This document shows, in pieces, positions 11,253-40,388 of a stretch of DNA of 64,000 bases. Each line of letters starts with the position of its first letter. Position 1 is the stretch's first letter. The notes under the pieces were generated by a model. It saw nothing but the letters and a program-made list of their open reading frames with translations. It had not been told where the DNA came from and ran no database searches. Origin of the DNA: Parabacteroides sp. FAFU027 (GTDB taxonomy: Bacteria > Bacteroidota > Bacteroidia > Bacteroidales > UBA7332); the NCBI RefSeq assembly GCF_022808675.1, contig NZ_JAKZKV010000001.1, positions 372,001 through 436,000 of the forward strand, written 5' to 3'. The position numbers and the translations under genes are program-made.

Positions 11253-11265
11253 ATGGAGTTGTTTA

Positions 11266-14099: not shown

Positions 14100-14224
14100 T
14101 GGTTCTATTTTTGTTTTAGCAAACTCATAACACGGAAAGGACGGAAATGCACCAATCTATTCAACATCAGCATTAGTATCAACCACACCAATCGGTGCAA
14201 ATCCGCATCTTTCGTGTAACAATA

Positions 14225-15261: not shown

Positions 15262-15273
15262 AGGTTCAATTTT

Positions 15274-16379: not shown

Positions 16380-16482
16380 AAAGCAATCTGTTAGGTAAAT
16401 AAAATGTAAAACTTGGAACAAGAAAATCTTGAATGAGATGTGATTCGTGGCCCTTAGTTCCCGAAGGCGACGAAAAAACATT

Positions 16483-16660
16483 TACGGGCAGGTCTTCTGG
16501 CTTGTCCCGTTCCGGCGCCTTCCCGTTTCAATCAGAAACAGTGGCAAAAGTGTGCCGAAACGTTTTTTGCGGACTTTACAGCTACGGGGATAGCTCACGA
16601 ATTGCACGTGATTCCCTTTTAATCCGTCTTCGAGAGATCGAATCCGGAACCGGTAAATTG
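16483..16660 (-). promoter_or_regulatory. Cobalamin riboswitch
   Basis: On the minus strand the conserved B12 box GCCAGAAGACCTGCC occupies 16501 down to 16487. Going 5', the core elements are present: AAAAGGGAA, a GTGC...GAGCTATCCCCGTAGCTGTAA-like block, GCCACTG, and GGGAAGG before the B12 box. The order and spacing fit an AdoCbl/Cbl aptamer. It sits upstream of cbiX and should repress the whole 12.6-kb operon when cobalamin is plentiful. Boundaries are approximate. Confidence 0.92.
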
Positions 16661-16758
16661 CGGGGCAAAGGTAGGGAAATATTTTACACGACAAATCCCG
16701 AAGAAAAAACTTTTCCCGATTCTGCCTCTTTTGAAAGACAAAAAACCGGGAAAGGAAG

Positions 16759-25911: not shown

Positions 25912-26832
25912 ATGAAAGGAAGACTTCAAGCCAAATTAAACATGTATCTGGCATTATGTGATTTTTTGAAAAAGAATCCTGAAATTACAGCTAAAATCCC
26001 CGGCTTTACTGATTTTATGGCTGATCTTGATGCGGCAATCCTGTTGATTCAGGCACAAATCAATGAACAGAACCATAATCCTGCCGGAAAAATTGTCAAT
26101 AGCCAGGTAATTAAGGAATCTGTAGTTGACATTACGCAGGAAAATGCCGATAAGATTTATGCTTATGCTAAAATCAGCAACAACGCCACTTTGCTGGCAG
26201 AAACGAAATTTACAGTTTCAGACCTGAGAAGACTTTCCATCCCGGAATTAATCAATGTATCAAATAATCTCTATAATCACATTGATGAGCATCTGGAGTA
26301 TGTCGGGCCCTTTTTTCTGAATAGTAATACGCAAAGTGCCTTTAAAGCGACAATCAATTCACTGTTTGTCACAATCCCCGGTAATCTGAATGCCAATACT
26401 CAAACGAAAGAGTATCAGTTTATCGCCAATCAGGGATTTGAAGCCGCCGAAACCGCCATAGAAAATATGGATACCGTAATAAAAATAATCAGAACCACTG
26501 AGCCGGTCTTCTATAATAGCTATCTGAATGCGCGCAAAATTAAAGAACCGGCAATTTCGTCACTCAGCGCACAAGGTACCGTGACGGACGTTGCCACCGG
26601 CAAGCCGGTCATCGGCGCAACACTCACTTTCCGCCTTCAAGGTACAACCGACATCGTCCTGCAGAAAGAGAGCGCAGCCAAAGGCGGCTTTATGATCAAA
26701 TCACTTGATGATGGCATCTATGAAGTCACCATTGAGAAGGTGGGCTTCAAAACAAAAACAATCATCGTCACCGTAAGCTGGGACGAATTGTGCAATATTA
26801 ATGTGGAATTGGAAAAGATAGTGCAGGGGTAA
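25912..26832 (+). CDS. Helical protein with C-terminal carboxypeptidase-regulatory-like domain
   Basis: A 306-aa protein with two parts. Residues 1 to about 215 are helical and match nothing I recognise. Residues about 220-304 form a carboxypeptidase-regulatory-like beta-sandwich (AQGTVTDVATGKPVIGATLTF, then GIYEVTIEKVGFKTKTIIV). That domain usually sits in secreted or outer-membrane proteins, but no signal peptide is visible here, so the location is unclear. It is followed directly by the first module of the repeat-separated array. Confidence 0.75.
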   Translation: MKGRLQAKLNMYLALCDFLKKNPEITAKIPGFTDFMADLDAAILLIQAQINEQNHNPAGKIVNSQVIKESVVDITQENADKIYAYAKISNNATLLAETKFTVSDLRRLSIPELINVSNNLYNHIDEHLEYVGPFFLNSNTQSAFKATINSLFVTIPGNLNANTQTKEYQFIANQGFEAAETAIENMDTVIKIIRTTEPVFYNSYLNARKIKEPAISSLSAQGTVTDVATGKPVIGATLTFRLQGTTDIVLQKESAAKGGFMIKSLDDGIYEVTIEKVGFKTKTIIVTVSWDELCNINVELEKIVQG

Positions 26833-26848
26833 AACCCTGTGCTACAAA

Positions 26849-26912
26849 CTTTGGCGCGAGGTCAGCGATAGCGGATCTCGCGCTAATAGGTACTAAACTC
26901 GCTAGAGGAAGG
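26849..26912. repeat. Short RAYT-type module A
   Basis: A 64-base shortened version of the array module: GGCGCGAGGTCAGCGATAGC on the left and TACTAAACTCGCTAGAGG on the right, lacking the interior. It marks the left end of the repeat-separated gene array. Confidence 0.75.
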
Positions 26913-26921
26913 ACATTATAA

Positions 26922-27446
26922 ATGAAAACACTATATAAAATATTAGGACTTACGATTATTGACTTTGGACTGATTTGGCTATGGGTGTATCGAATGGACC
27001 CAGACCCAAGTGTTTCAATAGAAATCATTCTTCTGGTTCCTTTTGTTTTTGTTCTTAATCTTATAATAGCAGGAGTTCTATTATTTGCTAAAAAGAAGGA
27101 GTATTCGAGTGTATTTCTTGTAAACTCAGTCCTTTCTTCAATTATAATGTTTTACCTGTTTGGAAGGGGTATCGACAGACACCAAAACAAACAATTAGAA
27201 GAATGGACATTTCAGAAAGCCGACACTACTTTTTCATTGATAAGGTTGAAAGAAACAAACGAATTTAGTCTCACTTACAGTTTAAATCCTGGTTCATCCT
27301 GTGGGTTCTTAGACGGACATTATGAGAACGAAAATGGGAATTGGATTTTAAAAGCGGACTCTATGACAATGAAAATTAGCAAAGACAATTTGATTGGTTT
27401 CAGAAATCCAACTGACACCATAAGAATGAAAAAAATAGAAAGATAA
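26922..27446 (+). CDS. Membrane protein of unknown function
   Basis: A 174-aa protein not recognised. Three hydrophobic segments in the first 90 residues (about 5-24, 33-55 and 63-82) are followed by a soluble domain with ETNEFSLTYSLNPGSSCGF and NGNWILKADSMTMKIS, which looks like a small beta-sheet domain. The ATG lies 10 bases after module A, and the stop is directly followed by the left end of the RAYT element. First gene of the accessory array. Confidence 0.65.
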   Translation: MKTLYKILGLTIIDFGLIWLWVYRMDPDPSVSIEIILLVPFVFVLNLIIAGVLLFAKKKEYSSVFLVNSVLSSIIMFYLFGRGIDRHQNKQLEEWTFQKADTTFSLIRLKETNEFSLTYSLNPGSSCGFLDGHYENENGNWILKADSMTMKISKDNLIGFRNPTDTIRMKKIER

Positions 27447-27448
27447 AA

Positions 27449-28160
27449 AGTAACTCTTGGCGCGAGTTTAGCGATAGCGTAACTCGTGTCCAAAACAAAG
27501 ACAGCTTGTAGCTGTCGCATAAATAAAAGCAGAAATTCTATGAGTAGAAAATACAAATTCCGAAACCCGGAAGCGATCTATTTTGCCACATTCGCGACTG
27601 TAAACTGGATTGATGTTTTCACAAGACCATTATACAAAGATATAGTGGTCGATAGCCTGAATTATTGCATTAAGGAGAAAGGATTAGTGATATATGCATG
27701 GGTGATAATGAGTAATCATGTGCATCTGGTCATCGAGCAAAGGGAAATTCCGTTGGAAGATATCCTAAGAGATTTAAAAAGACACACTTCAAAAGCGATA
27801 ACCAAAGCGATTGAAGAAAATCCACAGGAAAGTCGGAAAGAATGGATGCTTTGGATGTTTGAGCGTGCCGGAAAACGAAATTCTCATAATAGTAAGTATC
27901 AATTCTGGCAGCAACATAATCAACCGATAGAGCTTTCAACTCAAGCTTTTGCGATAGATAATACGATTGACTACATACATGAGAATCCGGTAAGAGCTGG
28001 TTTTGTGGACAGACCGGAAAACTATCCATACAGTAGCGCAATAGATTTTGCAGGTGGCAAAGGAAGAGTAAATATTGAACCTTGTTAAACAAAACCGCAG
28101 CTACAAGCTGCTCAAATTTCCAGCACGAGTTACGCTGCGCTAAACTCGCGCTAGAGGGAG
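27449..28160 (+). mobile_element. Intact REP-associated tyrosine transposase element
   Basis: A single-gene element bounded by inverted palindromic ends. The left end has TGGCGCGAGTTTAGCGATAG then CGTAACTCGTG, followed by the small hairpin GACAGCTTGTAGCTGTC. The right end has the partner hairpin GCAGCTACAAGCTGC and CACGAGTTACGCTGCGCTAA then ACTCGCGCTAG. The transposase gene fills the interior. The ends are shared with at least five shorter modules between 28.8 and 37.4 kb, for which this is the evident parent. Confidence 0.88.
27540..28088 (+). CDS. REP-associated tyrosine transposase (RAYT, Y1/IS200-like)
   Basis: A 182-aa HUH-type single-strand transposase. The HUH metal-binding motif is in IYAWVIMSNHVHLVIEQ, and the probable catalytic tyrosine is in the helix TIDYIHENPVRAGFV; YPYSSAIDFAGGKGRVNIEPC ends the protein in RAYT fashion. 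RAYTs process REP hairpins by strand cleavage. I start at 27540 because the upstream in-frame ATG lies in the terminal repeat. The last residues (KGRVNI) are recognisable in the deleted modules. Confidence 0.92.
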   Translation: MSRKYKFRNPEAIYFATFATVNWIDVFTRPLYKDIVVDSLNYCIKEKGLVIYAWVIMSNHVHLVIEQREIPLEDILRDLKRHTSKAITKAIEENPQESRKEWMLWMFERAGKRNSHNSKYQFWQQHNQPIELSTQAFAIDNTIDYIHENPVRAGFVDRPENYPYSSAIDFAGGKGRVNIEPC

Positions 28161-28172
28161 TAGAAAAAACAT

Positions 28173-28865
28173 ATGACACCTGACAATTTAAAAACTGACT
28201 TCGACGAGATTTTTAAGGGAATAATTATTCCTTTCTTCAAAGACCTTGGATTTAGACGAAAAGCACAACATTTTTCACGACAAACGAATGACATAACACA
28301 GTGCTTTACTGTTCAGAAAAGTCAATGGAACTCGTATAACGACAGTTTGAGTTTTACGTTTAATTTGGGATTTTACAATGAGGAAATAAGGACACTTTCG
28401 TTGGGTAGAGAGTTGCCAACTAACTTTCCTAAAACTACAGACTGTTTTATATATGACAGACTTGGATCTTATTCTCACAAATGTGACCATTGGTATGAAC
28501 TAAGTAAACGTGTTGACAGAACCAAAGTTGCAGGACAAGTAAAGAGTGATCTTGAGAAATATTTAAAACCATTATTTGAAGAGTATAAATCGCTTGACGA
28601 CCTCAAAAGATATTCGGAAAGAAATACAGGCTTTCTTTTGTCTCCATACGGAAAAATAGTATTTCTAATGATGACAGATCAAATGGAAAGGGGTAAACAA
28701 CTCATAAAAGAACAACACAAACTTGCTTTGACACCTCAAATGACGACTCAAATTATAAATTATCCAGACGGTCGAAAAGAAGAAAAAAAGTCTAAACCAT
28801 ACATAAATCAATATTATGTTGATCATATAGAAAGACTTGCAAGACATTACGATATTGAACTATGA
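28173..28865 (+). CDS. DUF4304-family protein
   Basis: A 230-aa soluble protein. LKTDFDEIFKGIIIPFFKDLGFRRKAQHFSR, then FTVQKSQWNSYNDSLSFTFNLGFY, is the characteristic DUF4304 pattern (a GF-[RK]-[RK] turn, then a strand ending in F-x-VQ-K-S). The family has no established activity; it is scattered in mobile regions and has been suspected of roles in conflict systems. It starts 13 bases after the RAYT element and is followed five bases later by module C. Confidence 0.8.
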   Translation: MTPDNLKTDFDEIFKGIIIPFFKDLGFRRKAQHFSRQTNDITQCFTVQKSQWNSYNDSLSFTFNLGFYNEEIRTLSLGRELPTNFPKTTDCFIYDRLGSYSHKCDHWYELSKRVDRTKVAGQVKSDLEKYLKPLFEEYKSLDDLKRYSERNTGFLLSPYGKIVFLMMTDQMERGKQLIKEQHKLALTPQMTTQIINYPDGRKEEKKSKPYINQYYVDHIERLARHYDIEL

Positions 28866-28870
28866 AAAAC

Positions 28871-29113
28871 CCTCTTTCGCGCGAGTATGAAAAGTAACTC
28901 CTGGCGCGAGTTTAGCGATAGAATAACTCGTGTCCAAAACAAAGACAGCTTGTAGCTGTCGCATATTAATAATACGAATATGATAAATAGTCGACTGGCA
29001 TTGTTAGAGATTAAAGACAGAGTTAATATTGCAGCTTGTAGGACTATGCCGCAGCTACAAGCTGCTCGTATTTCCAGCACGAGTTACGCTGCGCTAAACT
29101 CGCGCTAGAGGGG
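28871..29113. repeat. RAYT-derived module C
   Basis: About 243 bases. Order: CTCTTTCGCGCGAG leader, GGCGCGAGTTTAGCGATAGA, ACTCGTG, hairpin GACAGCTTGTAGCTGTC, a remnant interior, hairpin GCAGCTACAAGCTGC, and CACGAGTTACGCTGCGC then TAAACTCGCGCTAG. The remnant (from ATG at 28980) matches the 3' end of the RAYT gene in sequence and frame (IKDRVNI versus GKGRVNI), so the module is an internally deleted copy. Confidence 0.88.
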
Positions 29114-29136
29114 TGTGTAATTGAAAAAAAGCTCTT

Positions 29137-29604
29137 ATGAAAGTGGATTTGCTGAACGAAAAGCTTAGGATTTTAAAAAAGAAAATGGAAGGATTTAATT
29201 ACGAAGTGTCCTTACATTTTGACTTATTTGAACAAGTTATTGATTTGGGTTTAATTAAAGATAAGATCAAAACTCTTTATCCAAAAGCTTATCCAGACTT
29301 TGACTCTTTGACTTTAACTGATTACGGAGACTTAAAAATAGTTGTTAGTGACTGTTTTGATTATCGCGTAGATAGCGGCGCTGGACTTGAATTAAATGAG
29401 AAAGAAGAAAAGGAATTAAAACTAGAAACACTTGAATTCTGGAATGCTTTTGATGGTTTCATTGCAAAGGATAATACTGATTTCTATATTTATCCAAATG
29501 AAACAGGATTGTCAATTTATCCAGTATGGTGGGATTTCGAATATTTAATTATCGATAATAAAAATCAGAACTCAGTATTATTTTATGGTGCAGCGTCTGA
29601 TTAA
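29137..29604 (+). CDS. Small acidic protein of unknown function
   Basis: A 155-aa soluble protein, not recognised. The N-terminus is a lysine-rich helix (LLNEKLRILKKKMEG); the rest is acidic with many aromatics, ending GLSIYPVWWDFEYLIIDNKNQNSVLFYGAASD. Size and composition recall small immunity-type proteins, but I see no diagnostic motif. It starts 24 bases after module C and ends 20 bases before module D. Confidence 0.65.
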   Translation: MKVDLLNEKLRILKKKMEGFNYEVSLHFDLFEQVIDLGLIKDKIKTLYPKAYPDFDSLTLTDYGDLKIVVSDCFDYRVDSGAGLELNEKEEKELKLETLEFWNAFDGFIAKDNTDFYIYPNETGLSIYPVWWDFEYLIIDNKNQNSVLFYGAASD

Positions 29605-29623
29605 TGATAAAAATCAACTACCC

Positions 29624-29868
29624 CCTCTTTCGCGCGAGTTTGAAAAGTAACTCTTGGCGCGAGTTTAGCGATAGCGTAACTCGTGTCCAAAACAAAGACA
29701 GCTTGTAGCTGTCGCATATTAATGATATGAATATGAGAAATAGTCGACTGGCATTGTTAGAGATCAAAGGCAGAGTTAATATTGCAACTTGCCGGACTAT
29801 CACGCAGCTACAAGCTGCTCGTATTTCCAGCACGAGGTACACTGCGCTAAACTTGCGCTAGAGGGGGG
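29624..29868. repeat. RAYT-derived module D
   Basis: About 245 bases, same order as module C. The remnant interior starts at 29733 and encodes KGRVNI, identical to the RAYT C-terminus. The right end has small changes (CACGAGGTACACTGCGC). Confidence 0.88.
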
Positions 29869-29881
29869 ACTTATTGAATAG

Positions 29882-29977
29882 TTTGACAAAAGTAAAATTA
29901 CCGACAAAACAAGAGTAAAACAAATACTACGTTCGTTGCTCGTTGACGAACAATCAATTGAACTAATAGTTGAATGA
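29882..29977 (+). pseudogene. C-terminal remnant of an unknown gene cut by module D
   Basis: An open frame without a start codon, just right of module D. It reads FDKSKITDKTRVKQILRSLL and then VDEQSIELIVE before a TGA. The amphipathic pattern looks like a real protein C-terminus. The rest of the gene appears to have been removed where the module sits. Too short to assign. Confidence 0.4.
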
Positions 29978-30033
29978 GGAAATTATATAGAAAATAAAAA
30001 CTACCCGTTGGGTGCTATATAAAAAAGAAAATT

Positions 30034-30717
30034 ATGATAACATCGAATGATATAAAAAAATATGCTTTTGATCAAGGAGCAGATTTGTGTGGAATAGCTT
30101 CAATAGATAGATTTGATGATTTTCCGAAAGGTTTTCATCCTAAAGATGTATACAAAGAAACACAATCTGTCATATCGATAGTATGTAAAATTCCTGAAAT
30201 GCCATTGTATATAGATACTCCATCACCATATACAGCGATTGAAGAAATAGCTCTAACAAAAGTAAGTCAAATAGCATTTGCAATTACAAACTATATTGAG
30301 AAGAAAGGATATTCAGCAATATTGATACCTTCAGTTCCATATGATTATTGGGATGCAGATACTTTAACTGGAAAGGGAATACTCTCATTAAAACACATAG
30401 GATATAAGGCTGGAATCGGAAGAATAGGAAAAAATGCATTGTTATGTAATGAAAAGTATGGTAATTTGATAAAACTTGGAGCCATAATAACCAATGCTGT
30501 TTTAGAATCTGATGACTTAATCGATAAAGAGTATTGTAATGAAAAGTGTAGATTGTGTATCGATAGTTGTCCGGTAAATGCAATAGATGAAAATTATCAT
30601 GTATCACAAAAGAAATGTCGAGAGTATTCAGAAATTAAAAATAAAAGGGGTGTTGAGATTTATTCTTGTAAAGAATGTCGAAAAGTTTGCCCAAATGGAA
30701 GTAGATTGAGAAAATAA
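30034..30717 (+). CDS. 4Fe-4S protein related to epoxyqueuosine reductase
   Basis: A 227-aa protein. The N-terminal part resembles the QueG/DUF1730 region (FDQGADLCGIASIDRF, LSLKHIGYKAGIGRIGKNALL). The C-terminus carries ferredoxin-like cysteine clusters: EKCRLCIDSCPVNAI and later SCKECRKVCPNG. It is shorter than true QueG (about 310-380 aa), so it may be a related iron-sulphur oxidoreductase rather than the queuosine enzyme. The gene is A+T-rich like its neighbours. Confidence 0.8.
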   Translation: MITSNDIKKYAFDQGADLCGIASIDRFDDFPKGFHPKDVYKETQSVISIVCKIPEMPLYIDTPSPYTAIEEIALTKVSQIAFAITNYIEKKGYSAILIPSVPYDYWDADTLTGKGILSLKHIGYKAGIGRIGKNALLCNEKYGNLIKLGAIITNAVLESDDLIDKEYCNEKCRLCIDSCPVNAIDENYHVSQKKCREYSEIKNKRGVEIYSCKECRKVCPNGSRLRK

Positions 30718-30726
30718 ATAATACAG

Positions 30727-30982
30727 CTCCTCTTTCGCGCGAGTTTGAAAAGTAACTCCTGGTGCGAGTTTAGCGATAGCGCAACTCGTACCCAAAACTA
30801 AGACAGCTTGTAGCTGTCGAATGTAAAGAAATAAATAAGCTGAAAGCAGTGAATCTATATTATCAAACAGGAACTCCTAAACTCGCACTAGTGAGGATAG
30901 CATAAAGGATTTGAAAGCAGTGAATCTATATTATCAAACAGGAACTCCTAAACTCGCACTAGTGAGGATAGCATAAAGGATT
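30727..30982. repeat. Degenerate RAYT-derived module E with a 71-bp duplication
   Basis: The left end (CTCTTTCGCGCGAG, GGTGCGAGTTTAGCGATAGC, hairpin AGACAGCTTGTAGCTGTC) is intact. The right half is altered: a 71-base segment at 30841-30911, ending with the module's terminal ACTCGCACTAGTGAGG, is perfectly duplicated at 30912-30982. Confidence 0.85.
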
Positions 30983-31023
30983 TGAATGTTATATAGAGGG
31001 ATGCTAGGGCAGTTGAAAAAAAC

Positions 31024-31647
31024 ATGAGACAACAAAAGACAGACGATATAATCAAGTTCCTTAAGGACAATATTGAACCACTGCAAGACAGCGTATATGG
31101 ACTTGGCTACCGTGCTTCTGTTTATTTAACAGACGGTACATTTTTACCATGCGTTATTTTCAGAAATCCGAAAACGATTGTGGATTTAGCGATAGGGCGG
31201 TTTAAAGAAGAACAACCGGAAAAAGGAATTTTTAAAAGAAAATCCGGAGTTAGTTATTACGACTTAGTGAAAAACTTCGTGACAACTGGTAATTGTATAA
31301 ACGAATATGACATTGACAGAGTTGAGAAAAGTAAATTTGCTTTTCCACTAAAAATACAAAAGCAAATACAAGGTGAAACAACTATGGGTTGGACAGGTTT
31401 TGCAGCAAAAATGAAAGATGGAAAGTACGTAGGATTTGGAACGAATTTTCATTGGGAGTTTTTCAATATGCCTGACAATTATTCGGTTGACGACATTGAA
31501 GAAATAATTAATCATAGCTATGTTCTTAAGACTGGAGAGCTACGGTCACACAGGCAAGGACCATTAACAAGACCAGAAGAATATAAAAATGCTGTTGTTT
31601 ATAGAGAACGACCATATTTTGAATGTTACTTAGACAACTTATTATGA
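31024..31647 (+). CDS. Protein of unknown function
   Basis: A 207-aa soluble protein without signal peptide, not recognised. Notable segments are YGLGYRASVYLTDGTFLPCVIF, a central GWTGFAAKMKDGKYVGFGTNF-type beta region, and an acidic helix YSVDDIEEIINHSYV. It lies between modules E and F and starts three codons into MRQQKTDDIIKFLKDN with no upstream alternative. Confidence 0.6.
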   Translation: MRQQKTDDIIKFLKDNIEPLQDSVYGLGYRASVYLTDGTFLPCVIFRNPKTIVDLAIGRFKEEQPEKGIFKRKSGVSYYDLVKNFVTTGNCINEYDIDRVEKSKFAFPLKIQKQIQGETTMGWTGFAAKMKDGKYVGFGTNFHWEFFNMPDNYSVDDIEEIINHSYVLKTGELRSHRQGPLTRPEEYKNAVVYRERPYFECYLDNLL

Positions 31648-31670
31648 GACAACACGAGTAATTTAAAAAC

Positions 31671-31910
31671 GAAAAGTAACTCCTGGCGCGAGTTTAGCGA
31701 TAGCGTAACTCGTGTCCAAAACAAAGACAGCTTGTAGCTGTCGCATATTAATGATATGAATATGATAAATAGTCGACTGGCATTGAAAGAGATCAAAGAC
31801 AGAATTAATAATGCAACTTGCCGGACTATCCCGCAGCTACAAGCTGCTCGTATTTCCAGCACGATCCCGATAGAATTCGGGAATGCTGCGCTAAACTCGC
31901 GCTAGAGGGA
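31671..31910. repeat. RAYT-derived module F with an inserted palindrome
   Basis: About 240 bases in the same order as module C, but near the right end the normal GAGTTACGC is replaced by an insert containing TCCCGATAGAATTCGGGA, itself a palindrome (31864-31883). The frame through the remnant (ATG at 31762) stays open across the insert. Confidence 0.87.
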
Positions 31911-31970
31911 GGATGTTATGTGCAACCGTAAAAAAACATAATCCGAAACTACTACAACACAATACTAATC

Positions 31971-32714
31971 ATGAAAAGAAAATTATTTATTGCGCTCATT
32001 TGCTATCCATTAGTTTTAACTGCACAGCAAACAGTAAAAGTGAAAAAGAGTATGAAAAATTCATGCAGAACTGAGAATTATGAAGTTCTTAAATCAGATC
32101 GTAAAATTCGACATGGTCATTATCAACAGATATTAAACGGTCATATTTTGGAAGATGGTTATTACAAAAATGGTTTGAAAGATAGTCTTTGGCAAGACTA
32201 TAATCTCAATGGATCTTTAATCTCAACTGGAATGTACAAGGAAGATCAACAGGTTGGTAACTGGAACTTCTACAATGCAATGGGCTTACTTGAGCAAACA
32301 TATGATTTCACAAATCAGAAACTATTATATTACCTTCCCGAAAAGCAAGGAGAAGAACAAAAATATAATATTTTGATTAATAACGAAAATCAAGAGGTCA
32401 TATTGGATAGACCTCCTTTATATATAGAAGGTACCGAAGCAGTAAGAAAGAAATTTACTTTTAACATGAAAATCCCTTTTGAGGTTTATGAATCAGGGAA
32501 AAGTGGGAAAGTAGTTATTCGACTTAGCATCAACGAAAAAGGAGAAGTTACCGATTATGAAATCAAACAAAGCTTTGGATATGGCTTAGACGAAGAAGTG
32601 CTGCGTGTTGTAAAAACCCTAACACATTGGCTACCTGCCATTTATCAAGGGAAAGAAATCGCGACAAAAATAAACATACCATTTAACTTTATGATGTCCA
32701 CAGGAACACATTGA
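31971..32714 (+). CDS. Secreted MORN-repeat protein with C-terminal TonB domain
   Basis: A 247-aa protein with an N-terminal signal peptide (residues 1-18). Residues about 45-105 hold MORN/YwqK-like repeats (EDGYYKNGLKDSLWQDYNLN, STGMYKEDQQVGNWNFYN). Residues about 165-244 form a TonB C-terminal domain (GKVVIRLSINEKGEVTDYEI, LPAIYQGKEIATKINIPFNF). Such proteins are common in Bacteroidota. Upstream is GTTATGTGCAA (31915), the sequence that also ends the attC-like site at 36.6 kb. Confidence 0.82.
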   Translation: MKRKLFIALICYPLVLTAQQTVKVKKSMKNSCRTENYEVLKSDRKIRHGHYQQILNGHILEDGYYKNGLKDSLWQDYNLNGSLISTGMYKEDQQVGNWNFYNAMGLLEQTYDFTNQKLLYYLPEKQGEEQKYNILINNENQEVILDRPPLYIEGTEAVRKKFTFNMKIPFEVYESGKSGKVVIRLSINEKGEVTDYEIKQSFGYGLDEEVLRVVKTLTHWLPAIYQGKEIATKINIPFNFMMSTGTH

Positions 32715-32745
32715 CAATCATAAACAAAAAAGAATTCTAAAACGG

Positions 32746-32852
32746 CTAGCACATAATACATAGCCTTTCGTGCGGTCGGCAAGACCCAGCATGAAAGGCA
32801 GGTTGAACTATATTCCCGATTCACTGTCGGTCATGTACGGAAGAAAGAAGTC
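32746..32852. repeat. Dispersed 107-bp repeat, copy 1
   Basis: Begins AGCACATAATACATAG and ends GTACGGAAGAAAGAAGTC. It contains an internal hairpin (CTTTCGTGCGGTC, GACCCAGCATGAAAG) and ATTCCCGATTCACTGTCGG. About 90 percent identical by eye to 34485-34591. Both copies directly follow a coding gene of the array. Confidence 0.85.
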
Positions 32853-32929
32853 CCCTCTTTTGTGCGAGTTTTAAAGGTAACTCCTGCCGCGAGTTTAGCG
32901 ATAGCGTTCCCGCTATCGGGAACGCTACC
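32852..32929. repeat. Truncated RAYT-type module G'
   Basis: The left end only (TCTTTTGTGCGAG, CCGCGAGTTTAGCGATAGCG), ending in the palindrome GTTCCCGCTATCGGGAAC, and abutting a complete module. Confidence 0.8.
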
Positions 32930-33173
32930 CCTCTTTCGCGCGAGTTTGAAAGGTAACCTCTGGCGCGAGTTTAGCGATAACGTAACTCGTGTCCAAAAAC
33001 AAAGACAGCTTGTAGCTGTCGCATATTAATGATACGAATATGATAAATAGTCGACTGGCATTGTTAGAGATCAAAGACAGAGTTAATATTGCAGCCTGCA
33101 GGACTATCACGCAGCTACAAGCTGCTCGTATTTCCAGCACGAGTACGCTGCGCTAAACTCGCGCTAGAGGGAG
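32930..33173. repeat. RAYT-derived module G
   Basis: About 244 bases in the standard order. Compared with module C one base is missing in the right terminal repeat (GAGTACGC for GAGTTACGC), which breaks the open frame running through the other copies. Confidence 0.88.
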
Positions 33174-33263
33174 TCGCATACAGGATTTGAGTGTCATATA
33201 GAGGGATGTTGGCACCAATGTTAGAGGAGGACACTGAAGCAATTGGATTATAAAATTACAAAG

Positions 33264-33857
33264 ATGACTAAAAAGGTACTTTTATTTTTATCGCAAGGAT
33301 TTGAAGCTTATGAAGCCAGCGCATTTACTGATGTGGTTGGATGGAGTCGTGAAGTCGGATTTAATGCTGTAGACTTAATTACAACAGGATTACGACCAGA
33401 ATATACATGCTATTGGAATTTAATAGTAAAACCAGAAATATCATTTGACCAAATAAAAGTAGAAGATTTTGACGCACTTGCAATTCCAGGAGGAGCACCT
33501 GTTGCGGGATTTTTAGAAGATGTATACGATGAAAGATTCCAAAACTTAATCAGAGAATTTGATAAACAGAACAAAATAATTGCATCAATCTGTGTCGGTG
33601 CACTACCAATCGGGAAATCAGGGGTCTTGGCAAATCGAAAAGCAACTACTTGGGACTTGAACAATGGTAAACGACGAAAAGAATTAGCAGATTTTGGAGT
33701 AACTGTATTAGACAAACGACTTGTAATTGATAAAAATATTATCACATCAACAGGTCCTGCTACATCACTAGATGTTGCATTTACTTTGCTTGAAATGTTG
33801 ACGAATATTGAAAATGTCAATGAGGTTAAAAAGAACATGCGATTTAATCTGGATTAA
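33264..33857 (+). CDS. DJ-1/PfpI-family protein
   Basis: A 197-aa cytoplasmic protein of the DJ-1/ThiJ/PfpI superfamily. VLLFLSQGFEAYEASAFTDVVGW is the standard start, DALAIPGGAPVAGFLED follows, and the nucleophile-elbow cysteine is in IIASICVGALPIGKSGVLANRKATT. STGPATSLDVAFTLLEML closes the fold. The ATG at 33264 is preferred over an upstream TTG. Substrate unknown; family members are deglycase-like or stress proteins. Confidence 0.88.
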   Translation: MTKKVLLFLSQGFEAYEASAFTDVVGWSREVGFNAVDLITTGLRPEYTCYWNLIVKPEISFDQIKVEDFDALAIPGGAPVAGFLEDVYDERFQNLIREFDKQNKIIASICVGALPIGKSGVLANRKATTWDLNNGKRRKELADFGVTVLDKRLVIDKNIITSTGPATSLDVAFTLLEMLTNIENVNEVKKNMRFNLD

Positions 33858-34005
33858 ATCCATAGAATCACTGGAAAACTATAAATGCCCAGAATGTGAG
33901 ACTTTAAATTCAGGTTGGGATTTATCTTGTCGAAAATGCGGAAACACACCGAGTTGTAAGTACGTAGAGAACAACCAAACAGAAATACAAGAACGAATAA
34001 AATAA
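33808..34005 (+). CDS. Possible small zinc-ribbon protein overlapping the DJ-1 gene
   Basis: A 65-codon frame starting inside the DJ-1 gene and ending 15 bases before the next gene. Its second half encodes YKCPECETLNSGWDLSCRKC, a clear CxxC...CxxC zinc-ribbon pattern. The first half is probably only a shadow of the DJ-1 frame. It may be a short real protein with a later start, or a tail once fused to the DJ-1 protein and separated by a frameshift. Confidence 0.4.
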   Translation: MKMSMRLKRTCDLIWIKSIESLENYKCPECETLNSGWDLSCRKCGNTPSCKYVENNQTEIQERIK

Positions 34006-34019
34006 AAGACAACTGGAAT

Positions 34020-34472
34020 ATGATAAGAATTAGAGAAGCGGTAGAAAAAGACTCAGTAATAATTTATGACTGTATTTGTGGACTGGCGGAACATGTTAAT
34101 CAACTAGACATGGTTTCGGCAACAGAACAAGACATAAAAGAATCAATTTTCAGTTCAGACAGTCATGTTAAAGTGTTTGTAGCCGAGAACGAAGAGAATA
34201 AGATTTGTGGCTTTGCGTTGATTTTAAAAACATTTTCAACGTTTAAGGCGAAGACGAATTATTACATTGAAGACTTATTCGTTTTTCCTGAGTATAGAAA
34301 TTTAGGAATTGGGAAACAGCTTTTTGATTACATAAAAGACTATGCGCAAGTTCATGGAGCGAATAAAGTGGAATGGTATGTGAACAACGCAAATCATGGA
34401 GCGATTGACTTTTATAAAAAGATTGGGGCTAAAGAACTTGATTATAAGTCGATTTACTACTTGACTGTTTGA
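34020..34472 (+). CDS. GNAT-family N-acetyltransferase
   Basis: A 150-aa acetyl-CoA-dependent acetyltransferase. IRIREAVEKDSVIIYDCI at the start, ICGFALILKTF, and the acetyl-CoA motif VFPEYRNLGIGKQLFDYIKD are typical; NNANHGAIDFYKKIGAKELD is the usual ending. The substrate cannot be told; the sequence resembles diamine/aminoglycoside-type GNATs only in general. It is followed by copy 2 of the dispersed 107-bp repeat. Confidence 0.9.
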   Translation: MIRIREAVEKDSVIIYDCICGLAEHVNQLDMVSATEQDIKESIFSSDSHVKVFVAENEENKICGFALILKTFSTFKAKTNYYIEDLFVFPEYRNLGIGKQLFDYIKDYAQVHGANKVEWYVNNANHGAIDFYKKIGAKELDYKSIYYLTV

Positions 34473-34484
34473 CAAACCAAGCAC

Positions 34485-34591
34485 CTAGCCCATAATACAT
34501 AGATCTTCGTGCGGTCGGCACGACCCAGCATGAAGAGCAGGTTGAATTACATTCCCGATTCACTGTCGGTCATGTATGGAAGAAAGAAGTC
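34485..34591. repeat. Dispersed 107-bp repeat, copy 2
   Basis: Begins CCCATAATACATAGAT and ends GTATGGAAGAAAGAAGTC, matching the copy at 32746-32852 across its length with a few substitutions. Lies 12 bases after the GNAT stop codon. Confidence 0.85.
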
Positions 34592-34710
34592 ATATGATTA
34601 TGGAGAAAGCAGCAGGTTTTAAGAGCACCGCGGTGTCAGGGAAAGAGAGAAATCGCTTGCTTCAAAGAGGCATTGACTGATACAAACACCAAAAGCAACG
34701 CAGCCATGAG

Positions 34711-34752
34711 TCTCTCTTTCGCGCGAGTTTGAACGGTAACTCCTGGCGCTAA
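34711..34752. repeat. RAYT-type module fragment
   Basis: CTCTTTCGCGCGAGTTTGAA and CTCCTGGCGCTAATAGGTAA: a left-end fragment of the array module, with the interior and right end lost. Confidence 0.7.
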
Positions 34753-34956
34753 TAGGTAATTCTGTACAAGACACAAAAGATTCAATTCGAAAAACATTAA
34801 ACAACTGAAATCCAACAATCAATCTATTAAGACATTAGTGTCGCATAAAGGATTTGATTGTCATATAGAGGGAAGTTAGTGGCAATTATAAAAAACAGAC
34901 GAGAATCCTGGAATTAATAGAAATCGGTATAAAATGAAATTTAAATATCTAATAGA

Positions 34957-35688
34957 ATGAGAATCGCAATAGCCCAAACAAAGGCAATTAAAGGAAATAT
35001 TGAGAAGAATATAGAAAACCATTTAACGTGGATTAAAGAGGCAGTCCGGAATAAAGCGGAAATGATAGTTTTTCCAGAGTTGTCTGTAACAGGATACGAA
35101 CCAGAGATAGCAGCGAGTCTTGCAACCAATCAAAACGATATAAGATTAAATGAGTTACAGGATTTAAGTGATAGAAATGGAATCACGATTGGCGTTGGAT
35201 TGCCAACAAAAGACGAGAATGACACATTTGTAAGCATGATTATTTTCCAACCCAATAAGGAGCGAACGACCTATTCCAAACAGTATTTATATCCACCAGA
35301 AGAAACAATCTTTAAAGCTGGCAAAAATCCACTTGTTTTAAATTTTGAATCAGAAGTTGTATCTCCAGCTATTTGCTATGAGACGACTAATAAAGCACAT
35401 TGTGAATTTGCAAAACAAAACAAGGCAACAGTTTATGTCGCAAGTGTATTAAGTTCTATAAACGGAATTGATGCTGAATTAAAATTACTTTCAGACATAG
35501 CTAAAAACAACAATCTGATAACATTTATGGCAAATTATGTCGGAAAATCAGGAGGATATGAATGCGCAGGAAAATCATCGGTTTGGAATGAGAAAGGAGA
35601 ATTAATCTGGCAACTTGGGGATAAGGAAGAAGGTTTAATTGTTTACGACACGAAATCCAAAGAAATAATAACTGCCACTAATACATAG
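34957..35688 (+). CDS. Carbon-nitrogen hydrolase (nitrilase superfamily)
   Basis: A 243-aa cytoplasmic amidase-like enzyme. The Glu-Lys-Cys catalytic triad is visible: Glu in IVFPELSVTGYEP, Lys in TYSKQYLYPPEE, Cys in VSPAICYETTNKAH. MRIAIAQTKAIKGNIEKNI is a standard start. Length fits single-domain nitrilase-family members. Substrate unknown. A copy of the ATAAAGGATTTGA...GAGGGAAGTTAGTGGCA sequence precedes it. Confidence 0.88.
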   Translation: MRIAIAQTKAIKGNIEKNIENHLTWIKEAVRNKAEMIVFPELSVTGYEPEIAASLATNQNDIRLNELQDLSDRNGITIGVGLPTKDENDTFVSMIIFQPNKERTTYSKQYLYPPEETIFKAGKNPLVLNFESEVVSPAICYETTNKAHCEFAKQNKATVYVASVLSSINGIDAELKLLSDIAKNNNLITFMANYVGKSGGYECAGKSSVWNEKGELIWQLGDKEEGLIVYDTKSKEIITATNT

Positions 35689-35690
35689 GA

Positions 35691-35950
35691 CCCTGTTTCG
35701 CGCGAGTTTGAAAGGTAACTCCTCTTTCGCGCAAGAATGAACAATTGCAGTCAGGACCTAGCGCAAGTCTTGAGCGCAGCGGGGACTTGTGCTGAATTGA
35801 AAATCAGCGAAGCTAAAATCAAAGCTGTCTGCGACTGCAACAAGGAGTAAGCTCCTCTTTCGCGCAAGTTTGAAAAGTAACTCCTGGCGCGAGTTGAGCG
35901 ATAGCGTAATTCGCAATAAAGAGGGAATAGCATAACTCGCGCTAAAGGGG
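35691..35950. repeat. Compound of two REP-type modules
   Basis: A patchwork: a left-end fragment of the main module, then a second-family sequence (AGTCTTGAGCGCAGCGGGGA, CTTGTGCTG) as also found at about 38.7 kb, then another main-family left end with a short right end (ACTCGCGCTAAAGG). No coding potential. Confidence 0.75.
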
Positions 35951-35998
35951 GCTTTTTGGATAATTCAATTTGATTAAAAGAGAGAGATTAGAAATTAT

Positions 35999-36484
35999 AT
36001 GCAAAAATATCATTTACATAATAGACCAAATCGAGAGATTAAAGCAAATTCAGATATTTATGAGATACTTAAAAACGGTAAATATTCAGTGATTTCAATG
36101 TGTCGTGATAATGAGCCTTATATTGTAACTTTAAGTTATGGATTTGATTCTGAAAACAAGACTTTATATTTTCACTGTGCACCTCAAGGATTAAAACTTG
36201 ATTTTATTGGTGCAAACTCACAAGTATGTGCTACTGTAATTGAAGACGGTGGTTATGTTATAAATGAATGTGGACATAATTATAGAACAGTTGTATTCTG
36301 GGGGATTATGACAATTGCTACTGATTTAGAAGAAAAGATTCATGGAATGAGTGTATTATTGAATCATCTTGAGAGTGATAGTATGGTGATTAAGGATAAG
36401 TTATTTAAATCGAACGATTATCACTCAAAAATGGTTGTCTTAAAGCTTGATATTACTCAAATACATGGAAAGGAAGGAAGATAA
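35999..36484 (+). CDS. Pyridoxamine 5'-phosphate oxidase-fold flavin-binding protein
   Basis: A 161-aa PPOX-superfamily split-barrel protein. IYEILKNGKYSVISMCRDNEPYIVTLSYGFD and LYFHCAPQGLKLDFIGANSQVCATVIED fit the FMN-binding subgroup related to NimA/5-nitroimidazole-reductase-like proteins. The closing region YHSKMVVLKLDITQIHGKEG is also typical. Activity not determined. The attC-like site follows five bases after the stop. Confidence 0.85.
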   Translation: MQKYHLHNRPNREIKANSDIYEILKNGKYSVISMCRDNEPYIVTLSYGFDSENKTLYFHCAPQGLKLDFIGANSQVCATVIEDGGYVINECGHNYRTVVFWGIMTIATDLEEKIHGMSVLLNHLESDSMVIKDKLFKSNDYHSKMVVLKLDITQIHGKEGR

Positions 36485-36489
36485 AAAAT

Positions 36490-36643
36490 AAAAACGGCTT
36501 ACAACAACGTATATAAAATAAAGCAGTAGCAGTGGGTTTTCGGGCAATTTGTCCTGCATCATCGTTTGTCACAGGGGATACAGACGCAGCTCCACAATCC
36601 GCTTCATTTCATATACGCAAACCGTTATGTGCAAGTTTATAAA
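36490..36643. other. attC-like recombination site (integron cassette type)
   Basis: Left half GGCTTACAACAACGTATATA then AAATAAAGC; right half GCTTCATTTCATATACGCAA then ACCGTTATGTGC. The outer boxes TTACAAC and GTTATGT pair, then a short unpaired spacer (AA versus GGTTTG), then a second paired arm (CGTATATaAAATaAAGC). Outer box, unpaired spacer, inner box and variable middle is the architecture of integron attC sites. No integrase is in the window. Confidence 0.55.
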
Positions 36644-36655
36644 AAAAGAATGACC

Positions 36656-37075
36656 ATGAGTAATTTTAAAATATCTACGGATAAAGACAAGTTGGATTTA
36701 AATGTGATACATGATTTTCTAACAAATCGTTCATATTGGGCTATTGGTAGAAGTTATGAGACAGTTAAACGCTCCATTGAGAATTCTATTTGCTTTGGAG
36801 TATATGATAATTCAGACAAACTAGTCGGATTTGCAAGAGTTCTCACAGATTATGCTGTGTTTGCTTATATTATGGACGTTTTTATCTTAGAAGAATACAG
36901 AAAACAAGGATTGGGGAAACAACTTATGAATGCAATAATGCAGCACTCTGATTTGCAAGGTTTGCAACGCTTTATGCTTGCGACTAATGATGCCCACAAA
37001 TTATATGAGCAGTATGGTTTTAGACAGACTGTAATTCCAGACAAGATAATGGAAATTGTAAATAAACCTCAGTAA
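36656..37075 (+). CDS. GNAT-family N-acetyltransferase
   Basis: A 139-aa acetyltransferase. CFGVYDNSDKLVGFARVLTD, MDVFILEEYRKQGLGKQLMNAIMQH and KLYEQYGFRQTV are standard GNAT core motifs. I start at 36656 (MSNFKI) rather than the longer frame upstream because that extension lies inside the attC-like site. The gene begins 13 bases after this site, as a cassette gene would. Confidence 0.88.
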   Translation: MSNFKISTDKDKLDLNVIHDFLTNRSYWAIGRSYETVKRSIENSICFGVYDNSDKLVGFARVLTDYAVFAYIMDVFILEEYRKQGLGKQLMNAIMQHSDLQGLQRFMLATNDAHKLYEQYGFRQTVIPDKIMEIVNKPQ

Positions 37076-37096
37076 AGACAATAATATTTATGCCTA

Positions 37097-37334
37097 TATC
37101 GCGCGAGTTTGAAAGGTAACTTCTGGCGCGAGTTTAGCGATAGCGTAACTCGTGTCCAAAACTAAGACAGCTTGTAGCTGTCGCATATTAATGATACGAA
37201 TATGATAAATAGTCGACTGGCATTGAAAGAGATCAAAGACAGAATTAATATTGCAACTTGCCGGACTATCACGCAGCTACAAGTTGCTCGTATTTCCAAT
37301 ACGAGTTACGCTGCGCTAAGCTCGCGCTAAAGAG
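37097..37334. repeat. RAYT-derived module H
   Basis: About 238 bases in the standard order; the remnant interior starts at ATG 37202 and stays open. The next gene starts six bases after its end, so the module right end could supply or contain translation signals. Confidence 0.88.
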
Positions 37335-37340
37335 GAATCT

Positions 37341-38126
37341 ATGAAGAATCAAGCACTTAAACGGTTGACTATTTTATTATTTGGATTATTCATATTGACA
37401 GGTTTAATCGCACAAAAGCCTGATAATAAGTATAAACCCAAGAATTTAGATGAAGCTATTTCTCAGTTAGACATTTTGCTAACAGAAAAAGACAAGAAGG
37501 ATATTTACGACATGACTGAAAAAGATTACACAACTAACAGTCATTTTTCGACTGGAATGTGGATAAGAAACAATTGGGGCTTATGGGGTGGACAAGAATT
37601 AGCGAAATACTTTAACGGACTAGGTATTTATCATCCAGACGATATGTCTGGAATTATTTTGTGCAGTTATTATCGCCACATACACAATCAAGACTACAAA
37701 CTAGAAGAACAAATAAAATACTATCAAGATTACTGGAAGAAATCTCAAGAACTTGGACAACGATTAAAAACCGACACTGCATTTGCAAGACAAGAAAGAA
37801 TCAAATTCGAAGAATCTATGAGAGAGAAAAAGGAAAAACAAAAACAATCATTTCCAATAGGCTCAAAAATAAAAGCATGGGTTGAGTATAATTCCGTTGG
37901 TAACAGAACTGAAATTATTGGAACCGTCATTGAATGGCGATATGTTGACGAAAAAGGCAAACGACTTTCTACAGACGGAACATATTTTAAGTTGAAGGAC
38001 GTCGAAGCGAAAATCAAAGTTATTGAATTTATCGACAAGAAAAAGAAGAATCAAGTTGAGAAACAAAACCAAATGACAACTGACGAATTGTGGGTAAACA
38101 TTGGTCAACTCGAAAAACAAGAATGA
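37341..38126 (+). CDS. Secreted DUF6794-family protein
   Basis: A 261-aa protein with a signal peptide (about 1-25, ending LIAQ). KPKNLDEAISQLDILLTEKDKKDI, HFSTGMWIRNNWGLWGGQELAKYF and GIYHPDDMSGIILCSYYRHI match DUF6794. A charged helical stretch follows, then a small beta domain (IGSKIKAWVEYNSVGNRTEI). Function unknown. It starts six bases downstream of module H. Confidence 0.75.
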   Translation: MKNQALKRLTILLFGLFILTGLIAQKPDNKYKPKNLDEAISQLDILLTEKDKKDIYDMTEKDYTTNSHFSTGMWIRNNWGLWGGQELAKYFNGLGIYHPDDMSGIILCSYYRHIHNQDYKLEEQIKYYQDYWKKSQELGQRLKTDTAFARQERIKFEESMREKKEKQKQSFPIGSKIKAWVEYNSVGNRTEIIGTVIEWRYVDEKGKRLSTDGTYFKLKDVEAKIKVIEFIDKKKKNQVEKQNQMTTDELWVNIGQLEKQE

Positions 38127-38139
38127 ACAATGGCAGTCA

Positions 38140-38185
38140 GTCTCCTCATTCGCGCGAGTATGAAAAGTAACTCCTGGCGCTAAGG
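38140..38185. repeat. RAYT-type module fragment
   Basis: CTCATTCGCGCGAGTATGAA and ACTCCTGGCGCTAAGGAGCA: a left-end fragment like the one at 34711. Confidence 0.65.
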
Positions 38186-38229
38186 AGCAACATCAAAAAT
38201 ACAAGAAAGTAACATTATAAGTTAATAAT

Positions 38230-38646
38230 ATGGGATTATACTATCGGATTTGGGTCGATTGCATCATAAGATTGAAGTTGATTGATTCCAAAAAAACTGA
38301 TTGGAAGCTTAAAAGTATGATTACTATGTCTATTGCTATGGTTTTCAATCTAGTATTAGTATTAGTTATTTTACAGAAAAATGTATTTGGATACTTTTAT
38401 GAGATTAATATAGAATCTCTTTCTGGATTTGAGAATTACATTCTAACTATATTGGGTTTGTATTTGACACCTGTCATTGTGCTGAATTATTTATTGATAT
38501 TTCGACATAATAGATATGAAATACTTTTAGAAAGATATCCATATAAAAACGGCAAAGTTATTGTGACATATATTCTGATTTCTATGTTCTTACCAATTAT
38601 TCTTCTATGGGGTGGAATTATATTGGCAAAATTGAATGTCCTCTAA
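38230..38646 (+). CDS. Small membrane protein of unknown function
   Basis: A 138-aa protein with three hydrophobic helices (about 32-52, 68-92 and 110-133), separated by short charged loops (FRHNRYEILLERYPYKNGK). No signal peptide cleavage site and no known motif. Last array gene before the second REP-type element and the IS110 transposase. Confidence 0.6.
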   Translation: MGLYYRIWVDCIIRLKLIDSKKTDWKLKSMITMSIAMVFNLVLVLVILQKNVFGYFYEINIESLSGFENYILTILGLYLTPVIVLNYLLIFRHNRYEILLERYPYKNGKVIVTYILISMFLPIILLWGGIILAKLNVL

Positions 38647-38699
38647 CTATCTTGATTTAAAGATGAATGATAATGAGCAACTCTCGGCTCCTCTTTCGC

Positions 38700-38873
38700 A
38701 CAAGAATGAACAATTGCAGTCAGGACCTAGCGCGAGTCTTGAGCGCAGCGGGGACTTGTGCTGGATATCAAAGCAGTCTGTGACTGTGATAAGAACAAAA
38801 TATATGTCCGTTTAGAAACCATTCAGTTTGAAAACTGAAACAATTTGGAGTCCAAGTCTCCGCTGCGCTCAAG
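38700..38873. repeat. Second-family REP-type element
   Basis: Inverted ends AGTCTTGAGCGCAGCGGGGA then CTTG on the left and CAAGTCTCCGCTGCGCTCAA then GACT on the right, with a small GCAGTCTGTGACTGTG hairpin inside. The ends differ from the main module but the layout is the same. A left-end copy also occurs at about 35760. Confidence 0.8.
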
Positions 38874-38945
38874 ACTCATATCTTTACGACATATAAACAT
38901 ACAGCTAATACTTAGAAGAAACTTCATTGTTATAGAAGAAATGGC

Positions 38946-39018
38946 CTCTAATAGTGTAAAACAGCTAAGACTAAACACGAGACATCGATGTAGCGTTCAA
39001 GGAATCACACTATTAGAG
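38946..39018 (+). ncRNA. Candidate bridge-RNA stem-loop in the IS110 left end
   Basis: CTCTAATAGTGT (38946-38957) and ACACTATTAGAG (39007-39018) form a perfect 12-bp stem closing a 49-base internal region that has its own ACATCGATGT palindrome. IS110-group elements encode their bridge RNA in this left noncoding end. The structure fits one loop of such an RNA; full extent and the guide loops are not established. Confidence 0.5.
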
Positions 39019-39151
39019 CTTCTTCAAGAGTTTGAACAGTACTTAAGGATATGCGCATTGTTGCATAATCCAGCATAAAATATGAGTAAAGACGAAAAGA
39101 AGAGGAACCATTTAAAGCTCTAATTTATTATCAACTTAAAGCTAATTACTT

Positions 39152-40270: not shown

Positions 40271-40388
40271 GAAAAATAATTGCGATTTTATTTGGAGATT
40301 AAGACAGTACCTTGAACTAAGTGCAGAGTGCAAAATAAAAACATGGAAGGAAATAAGAAAAAAATCAAAATAGAAATAACGATAAACA

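Follow-up and report, generated by a model that had tools for sequence, protein, structure and literature searches.

Which process gathers small genes between repeats that share their ends with a mobile element? This question is raised by a locus of Parabacteroides sp. FAFU027, located in a stretch of 64,000 nucleotides hereafter called the window (positions 372001-436000 of contig C1 in the 4.9-Mb genome G000). From the stop codon of a conserved gene (26832) to an IS110-type gene at 39152, the genes of an array are separated by modules derived from the ends of a REP (repetitive extragenic palindrome)-associated tyrosine transposase (RAYT) element. An earlier reading of this DNA, hereafter the original prediction, reported about eleven small, A+T-rich plus-strand genes, and this description holds: besides that of the RAYT, twelve main open reading frames (ORFs) lie on the plus strand at 26922-38126, one more being found at 38230, and the array has a G+C content of 36.1% compared to 41.9% for the whole window. 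Their products are a DUF4304 protein, a 4Fe-4S protein, a TonB_C protein, a PfpI protein, two GNAT proteins, a carbon-nitrogen hydrolase, a pyridoxamine-oxidase-like protein, a DUF6794 protein and three proteins of unknown function. We consider it probable (roughly 0.8) that this locus represents a cassette array, now decayed, which belongs to an integron-like system occurring across Bacteroidota, with the RAYT modules as later settlers. The integron-like system behind the modules would be a larger finding than the modules themselves, which look like settlers rather than makers of the array.

According to the mechanism that we propose, a tyrosine recombinase, intact elsewhere in the genome (C1:228471-230135), would insert circular, mostly single-gene cassettes at an adjacent attI. 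Its substrates would be attC-like sites in folded form, about 135 nt long, and the GTT of the R' box would be the crossover point. The RAYT and its REPIN-like derivatives would have settled in the joints, where most attC sites are now gone, and the repeated modules would allow homologous recombination to delete or swap blocks of cassettes. We infer the action of the recombinase on these sites, the replacement of attC sites by modules and the order of events. The support is sequence-based and consists of covariation in the attC-like sites, complementarity of cassette ends, linkage to the integrase, identity of the RAYT and block differences between related genomes.

attC-like sites and their distribution

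A spacer of the array that contains no module (36485-36655) was matched, in some cases over a short length, in 11 of the 149 genomes of the order that form our comparison set (own genome G000 included), before any site model was built. A pattern taken from the end of this spacer was also found in 11 of the 149 genomes. Among the neighbourhoods of these matches are arrays downstream of a tyrosine recombinase in which genes alternate with sites of about 135 nt; these open with a box such as GCCCATAAC and close with GTTATGGGC. Among 24 aligned sites, each of 17 predicted base pairs (17/17) shows sequences in which both sides have changed while pairing is kept, the structure having been predicted from the same alignment. 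A model built from these sites, R1, matches (E<=0.01) in 98 of the 149 genomes, 12 of which supplied the training sites, and in 86 of 137 when the training genomes are left out. As 21 candidates were scored per genome under stricter filters, these counts are lower bounds. An integron-like system of this kind seems widespread in Bacteroidota. A detector based on box complementarity alone was discarded, its yield being little above that of shuffled sequences (462 vs 308); adding an inner-stem score improved it, shuffles at a score of at least 12 giving 0 in one run and 19 in another.

Linkage of the sites to a recombinase

Sites occur in 51 of the 56 genomes in which the recombinase was detected compared to 47 of the 93 others (Fisher p=1.3e-7, kinship uncorrected and training genomes included), presence being called at about 188 bits or more. 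At E<=0.001 the IntI profile TIGR02249 matched all 14 control genomes and was rejected as a presence test; bit scores against the family's own protein were therefore used.

The named recombinase loci that we examined are the best 80 of 592 relatives rather than a census, and comprise 46 loci from Bacteroidota, 33 from other phyla and one labelled just 'bacterium' (L193). R1, for which none of these loci was used, identified 72 sites in 22 of them. All but three (69/72) are located downstream of the recombinase and on the same strand; the remaining ones, two in L219 and a weak one in L231, lie upstream on the other strand. The 22 site-bearing loci are all labelled Bacteroidota and represent 22 of the 34 Bacteroidota loci whose downstream part spans about 700 bases or more; no R1 site was found in the 33 loci of other phyla or in the single 'bacterium' locus. 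Among the loci with sites, L211 contains a sequence nearly identical to a training site (98% identity over 129 nt), other matches to training sites being 69-84% identical. In the host genome, the intact recombinase (554 aa; locus L121) is followed by two ORFs, a site, an ORF and a second site, with exact cassette hallmarks as defined below. The two sites of L219 (uncultured Flavobacteriaceae, 79-1696) are opposite to the recombinase, unlike those of other arrays.

The cassette hallmark

In integrons, crossover at GTT leaves the first bases of a cassette complementary to its own end box. This complementarity was first noticed by eye in several arrays and then put to the test. Both boxes are readable in 65 of the 72 sites, and 47 consecutive pairs could be read, all from loci outside the model. 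The pairs agree at the six outer bases in 36 of 47 cases and at five or more in 41, whereas six-base agreement occurs in 0.5% of cases for boxes drawn from different loci and in 2/65 for the two boxes of one site. Together, covariation, locus linkage and hallmark argue strongly for integron-type cassettes.

Two site variants deserve mention. Locus L199 (Rufibacter sp., 9845-16079) carries a run of unusually short attC-like sites (~77 nt), several with exact hallmarks. Stretches of an attC-like site plus about 30 preceding bases are 91% identical between L135 (8714-8876) and L211 (11567-11729), the site alone reaching 98% over 129 nt. They come from G026, a genome of this order, and from Algoriphagus ornithinivorans. 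The recombinases of these two hosts show much lower similarity (66% at the DNA level); a transfer of a cassette end between distant hosts is possible.

attI-like DNA and the state of the window array

Element E (34755-34897), of which shorter pieces start at 30971 and 33173, is attI-like, as judged from the surroundings of its relatives. On G000 contig C5, the remnant of an integrase C-terminus (28 aa, 86%) lies upstream of an E-related element, and this in turn precedes a cassette with an exact hallmark; since E follows this remnant, we set aside the idea that it is part of an attC. G001, from the same genus, has an integrase, an attI-like box and a first cassette with exact hallmark. At the window locus of G002, a sister species, a full E-related element immediately adjoins the conserved gene (end at 26832). 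Beyond it come cassette A, whose hallmark is exact, a clean site that scores 90 bits and belongs to the training set, cassette B and a module. Ahead of and around the attI-like element, the DNA of contig C5 resembles that of G002 contig C145 (80-82%), so one ancestral locus may underlie both.

An attI beside an integrase was thus recognised, by position and hallmark, in G001, in L121 and in the C5 remnant, the window locus not being among them. No integrase is adjacent to the window array, where attI-like pieces precede three units; the locus would therefore now be a cassette cluster without integrase. By definition a CALIN (cluster of attC sites lacking an integrase nearby) has at least two attC sites, and the window contains one strong R1 site besides remnants of boxes.

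Two window units retain the hallmark, namely the TonB_C unit (31915/32749) and the hydrolase unit (34875/35674), in both of which the end box has AAT instead of AAC. Twelve units were tested, PfpI and the first GNAT counting as one and ORF 38230 being included. Over G000 and G002 the hallmark was found in 6 of 20 units tested compared to 5 of 380 control pairs. Given two window units with the hallmark, the sites and the attI-like DNA, it is probable that cassettes made up the original array and that decay followed, in agreement with the likeness to a cassette array first perceived at this locus.

A further element, D10, is present at 32746-32852, at 34485-34720 and on contig C5 (L035, 8911-9132), and matched in 5 of the 149 genomes, own included. 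It begins at cassette-end boxes and contains stretches that look hairpin-like by eye. We considered D10 as the 5' end of a group II intron and rejected this, as the longest copy has no such Rfam match and a gathering-level search of five loci gave none either.

Features of the recombinase

The host recombinase scores 217.3 bits against the IntI profile TIGR02249 (cut-off 265) and 213 against XerA (cut-off 220). Its closest solved structure, both by sequence and by fold search of a full-length model, is VchIntIA (2a3v). An insertion of about 42 residues, found in two true IntI of the order, is missing from 19 of 19 aligned family members, with a matching gap relative to 2a3v. By score and by this missing insertion, the protein departs from the canonical definition of an integron by an IntI with a specific additional domain. 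The R, H, R, H and Y columns, which we take to be the catalytic residues, are invariant or nearly so in the family alignment. In the tree, the family and IntI split from Xer and a fourth group at 89/84, the family not being resolved as one clade. True IntI above the cut-off were found in 2 of the 149 genomes (G009 and G085), and a rough pattern scan of 12 kb beside that of G009 revealed no convincing site.

The N-terminal part contains up to three repeats. Taken whole, it has no Pfam match; among 18 single repeats, two match HARP (best 9e-4) and four match DUF5710, and a profile of the 18 finds the SMARCAL1 HARP domain (4o66, E=0.0017) as its best solved match. The predicted model of this part shows three strand-strand-helix-strand-strand-helix units (mean pLDDT 76.8). 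Its structural matches include the XPB N-terminal domain (Z 6.0), SMARCAL1 HARP (4o66; Z 4.3, root-mean-square deviation 1.7 over 46 residues) and MutS N-terminal domains, the top row being an unrelated eIF1-type chain (Z 6.2) and every Z lying under 8, below the safe level. A Foldseek search with the same model gave nothing at E<=0.001 and ranked 4o66 41st. We thus see a weak resemblance of the repeats to the HARP DNA-binding domain. HARP domains fused to other SNF2 proteins give annealing activity according to an excerpt of PMC4035279, and the repeats may serve in reading folded attC.

The RAYT and its modules

The original prediction was correct about an intact RAYT at 27449-28160, the ORF of which (27486-28088) scores 99.8 bits against NCBIfam NF047646 (cut-off 80) and also matches Pfam Y1_Tnp. 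It also described at least five near-full-length modules in one orientation, together with shortened and compound ones. Five copies of 256 nt indeed start at 28870, 29623, 31652, 32930 and 37092, the other four being 66-92% identical to the first when ungapped and 87-94% by BLAST, and the module ends correspond to the first ~73 and last ~100 bases of the RAYT element. Outside the RAYT, the array contains 8 left-end and 5 right-end matches, every one on the plus strand; weaker minus-strand end matches arise as well, since each of the two ends resembles the other in reverse complement. The two ends of the module and of the RAYT match in reverse complement and occur in many copies, as in REPINs; the REPIN definition would also imply mobilisation by the RAYT.

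As the separators of the array, modules do occupy most joints; they also occur outside it, and several spacers hold other DNA, namely the attC-like site (36494-36635), the attI-like pieces (30971, 33173 and 34755) or D10 (32746 and 34485). Genome-wide, the module sequence gives 74 BLAST pieces, array and reverse matches counted, with about a dozen places outside the array. Of the strong attC-like sites, three out of five in G000 and all three in G002 lie less than 1.5 kb from a module; they represent three or four distinct places, and two of those in G002 belong to the window locus. This proximity suggests a preference of the modules for cassette-type arrays; the associated P of 8e-4 (2/3 loci) was computed post hoc, after the loci had been seen, from approximate inputs and is descriptive only. 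The one G001 stretch fetched for its REP-like matches (L086) also holds a site.

The NHVH, WQ and YIHENP motifs of the window RAYT are close to those listed for RAYT/REPIN subclass 2.6 (Bacteroidetes), an assignment made by eye. Excerpts of PMC6006769 attribute to RAYT-type genes of this subclass atypical flanking structures with copies elsewhere in the genome; here, by comparison, derivatives of about 240 nt crowd cassette arrays. A second RAYT-like sequence of G000 (C1; L034, 5857-6403) shows 73% DNA identity to that of the window. The module pairs at C7:69136-70557 and C1:723932-725353 have equal scores and spacing and represent either a duplicated stretch or an assembly duplicate.

Comparison with the sister species

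Alignment of the locus with a close relative, the check initially proposed, was carried out with G002 and showed that gene content differs in blocks. A block of 4.2 kb (32927-37152) is common to both genomes at 97.3% identity with modules at the same places; within it, insertion of single modules between fixed genes, the pattern expected if genes did not move as units, was not seen. At this locus G002 lacks 27455-32926 (5.5 kb, six genes including the RAYT), unit 1 being joined straight to the module before PfpI. It also lacks 37153-40367 (the DUF6794/IS110 stretch) and has at least three other units. The 4Fe-4S gene was found nowhere in G002; as this assembly is fragmented (830 contigs, 89% complete), units that seem to be missing may be located on contigs other than these. 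Of the four breakpoints, three fall within module or RAYT sequence or at its margin. As the breakpoints are mostly in modules, homologous recombination between modules likely accounts for the block differences, as had been envisaged for the reshuffling of genes; either a loss in G002 or a gain in G000 may be involved.

Alternative explanations

The original prediction also proposed that the RAYT moves gene-plus-module units, two modules in the same orientation acting as the ends of a composite transposon. This would account for the single orientation of the modules in the array and for their presence at three of the four breakpoints, but we regard it as very unlikely. Hallmark boxes and attC- and attI-like sites mark unit borders independently of RAYT ends, and the surviving hallmark boxes belong to attC-like sites, which argues against RAYT ends as the cassette-defining spacers. 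Of 21 genomes searched, 3 gave module matches, and the 80 named recombinase loci gave none, compared to attC-like sites in 98 of 149 genomes; arrays therefore do not need modules. Moreover, modules stay in place across the block common to G002, and RAYT-type genes are, in the excerpts of PMC6006769, generally single full-length copies beside REPs. No sign of unit-wise movement by the RAYT was found, and module recombination would explain the block differences. It is less probable still that the REP hairpins of the modules are substitute attC sites for the same integrase, gene-plus-module units being mobile cassettes to this day. Modules do fill joints in gene orientation, and on contig C11 one starts right after a cassette-end-like box minus one base (L032, ~7797-7805, by eye); yet the starts and ends of module-bounded units are not complementary, and this single junction may be due to chance. 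Finally, the locus could be an ordinary hotspot in which accessory genes came together by chance, REPs entered the gaps and the attC-like site is a coincidence. The absence of the hallmark from 10 of the 12 window units and the occurrence of modules at many other places in the genome fit such a hotspot. We find it unlikely, since a stretch of 11 kb combines two units that keep the hallmark with three pieces of attI-like DNA and an attC-like site, and since the corresponding locus of G002 starts with an attI-like element, then a cassette with exact hallmark and a clean site.

Several observations nevertheless weigh against a decayed cassette array. No recombination was observed directly. The hallmark is kept in just 2 of the 12 window units (P ~0.01), and a previous test, in which the search windows were set more narrowly, found it in 3 of 22 units overall and in 1 of 13 at the window locus, with 0.4% in controls; the search windows were widened afterwards because end boxes were seen overlapping ORF ends or lying further off. 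Within the window R1 detects a single strong site, and as single-stranded DNA this site folds no better than shuffled sequences do (z -0.8 and +1.0). For two window units, homologues were examined in other genomes, and none of the 9 loci has an attC-like site within flanks of about 1.5 kb. Sites are missing from 13 of the 35 recombinase loci with 700 bases downstream (12 Bacteroidota loci and the 'bacterium' locus), and are still present in 47 of the 93 genomes that fall below the recombinase threshold.

Relation to known integrons

The system resembles integrons and CALINs by its arrays of mostly single co-directional genes, its sites with R''/R' boxes and covarying stems, its exact complementarity between cassette start and end, and an attI-like box beside a tyrosine recombinase closest to VchIntIA 2a3v. 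The integrase-catalysed exchange of cassettes that is canonical for integrons would apply here as well. Classical intI genes are usually divergent from the array, whereas the recombinase described here mostly points toward it, scores 217 bits for an IntI cut-off of 265, lacks about 42 IntI residues and carries N-terminal repeats. Boxes such as GTTATGGGC depart from the classical consensus GTTRRRY. Group IIC introns in attC sites are likewise mobile elements linked to integrons; here the settler belongs to the RAYT family. The association of group IIC introns with integrons is noted in an excerpt of PMC7923331.

In the excerpt of PMC9024848, complete integrons are very rare in Bacteroidetes, with just In0 in an earlier survey and one complete integron (Salinibacter) added afterwards. 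Passages of PMC2426708 list intI genes for the Bacteroidetes/Chlorobi group, and those of PMC8618304 include Bacteroidota among integron-bearing phyla. The IntI-specific domain is called necessary in the passage of PMC9668308; that of PMC8138268 describes the insertion as essential for integron function, though incompletely conserved within a recombinase subgroup termed 'integron-like'. Relatives of the recombinase may therefore already sit in the subgroup of this excerpt, their arrays unnoticed. We found no description of integrons without the IntI domain in Bacteroidota, or of RAYTs in cassette arrays, in the full-text literature searched, in which few subscription journals and preprints are covered.

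We lean, slightly beyond even odds, towards an integron class proper to Bacteroidota and phylum-wide, in which the recombinase would lack the IntI-specific domain and usually point toward the array, HARP-like repeats that bind DNA in a structure-specific way would read the folded attC, and RAYTs, which likewise act on folded single strands, would parasitise the joints, so that old arrays become clusters shuffled by recombination, as at this locus. If the linkage holds, cassette-type sites are present in 98 of the 149 sampled genomes of the order, and folded-site recombination would have a second solution, without the IntI domain called necessary in the excerpts of PMC8138268 and PMC9668308. 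The origin of integrons from Xer-like recombinases could then be addressed directly, and a cassette pool would be opened whose integrase falls under the standard IntI profile cut-off. The window would show how such an array may age, REP elements overtaking its joints.

Features of the array and its surroundings

Table 1. Coordinates of the array features in the window
Feature	Position	Strand	Remark
Conserved flanking gene, carboxypeptidase-regulatory domain	25912-26832	+	G002 contig C235 alignable up to 26832
REP-like remnant	26846-26925	+	Repeat families D7, D14
Unit 1, protein of unknown function	26922-27446	+	In G002 beside PfpI unit
RAYT element, REP-like ends	27449-28160	+	ORF 27486-28088, NF047646
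DUF4304 protein unit	28173-28865	+	
RAYT-derived module (REPIN-like)	28867-29121	+	
Unit, protein of unknown function	29137-29604	+	
RAYT-derived module	29620-29878	+	
4Fe-4S protein unit	30034-30717	+	Matched in 7/149 genomes (own included)
Shortened module and 71-bp tandem duplication	30725-30972	+	
attI-like remnant	30971-31023	+	85% to element E
Unit, protein of unknown function	31024-31647	+	
RAYT-derived module	31671-31913	+	
Cassette-start box GTTATGTGC, TonB_C unit	31915-31923	+	All six outer bases complementary to box at 32749
TonB C-terminal domain protein unit	31971-32714	+	
Cassette-end box GCACATAAT, TonB_C unit	32749-32757	+	
Element D10, first half	32746-32852	+	
RAYT-derived module	32927-33172	+	One breakpoint vs G002
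attI-like remnant, ends in GTTGGCACC box	33173-33218	+	
DJ-1/PfpI protein unit	33243-33857	+	
GNAT acetyltransferase	34020-34472	+	Assigned to PfpI unit
Element D10, longest copy	34485-34720	+	
Module fragment	34709-34750	+	
attI-like element E	34755-34897	+	Cassette-start box GTTAGTGGC at 34875-34883
Carbon-nitrogen hydrolase unit	34957-35688	+	
Cassette-end box GCCACTAAT, hydrolase unit	35674-35682	+	All six outer bases complementary to 34875-34883
Compound module	35695-35940	+	
Pyridoxamine-phosphate-oxidase-like protein unit	35999-36484	+	
attC-like site, complete	36494-36635	+	98 bits vs model R1 (one of 24 training sites)
GNAT acetyltransferase unit	36566-37075	+	Likely start 36653
RAYT-derived module	37092-37347	+	
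DUF6794 protein unit	37341-38126	+	Not at corresponding place in G002
REP fragment	38140-38203	+	

Ahead of the left flanking gene of the array, a 43-bp tandem unit is repeated nine times (25023-25497), and a related run is present in G002. At the right end, the IS110-family transposase gene (39152-40270) is not found at the corresponding place in G002. The window also contains a cobalamin riboswitch on the minus strand (16470-16669, 105 bits).

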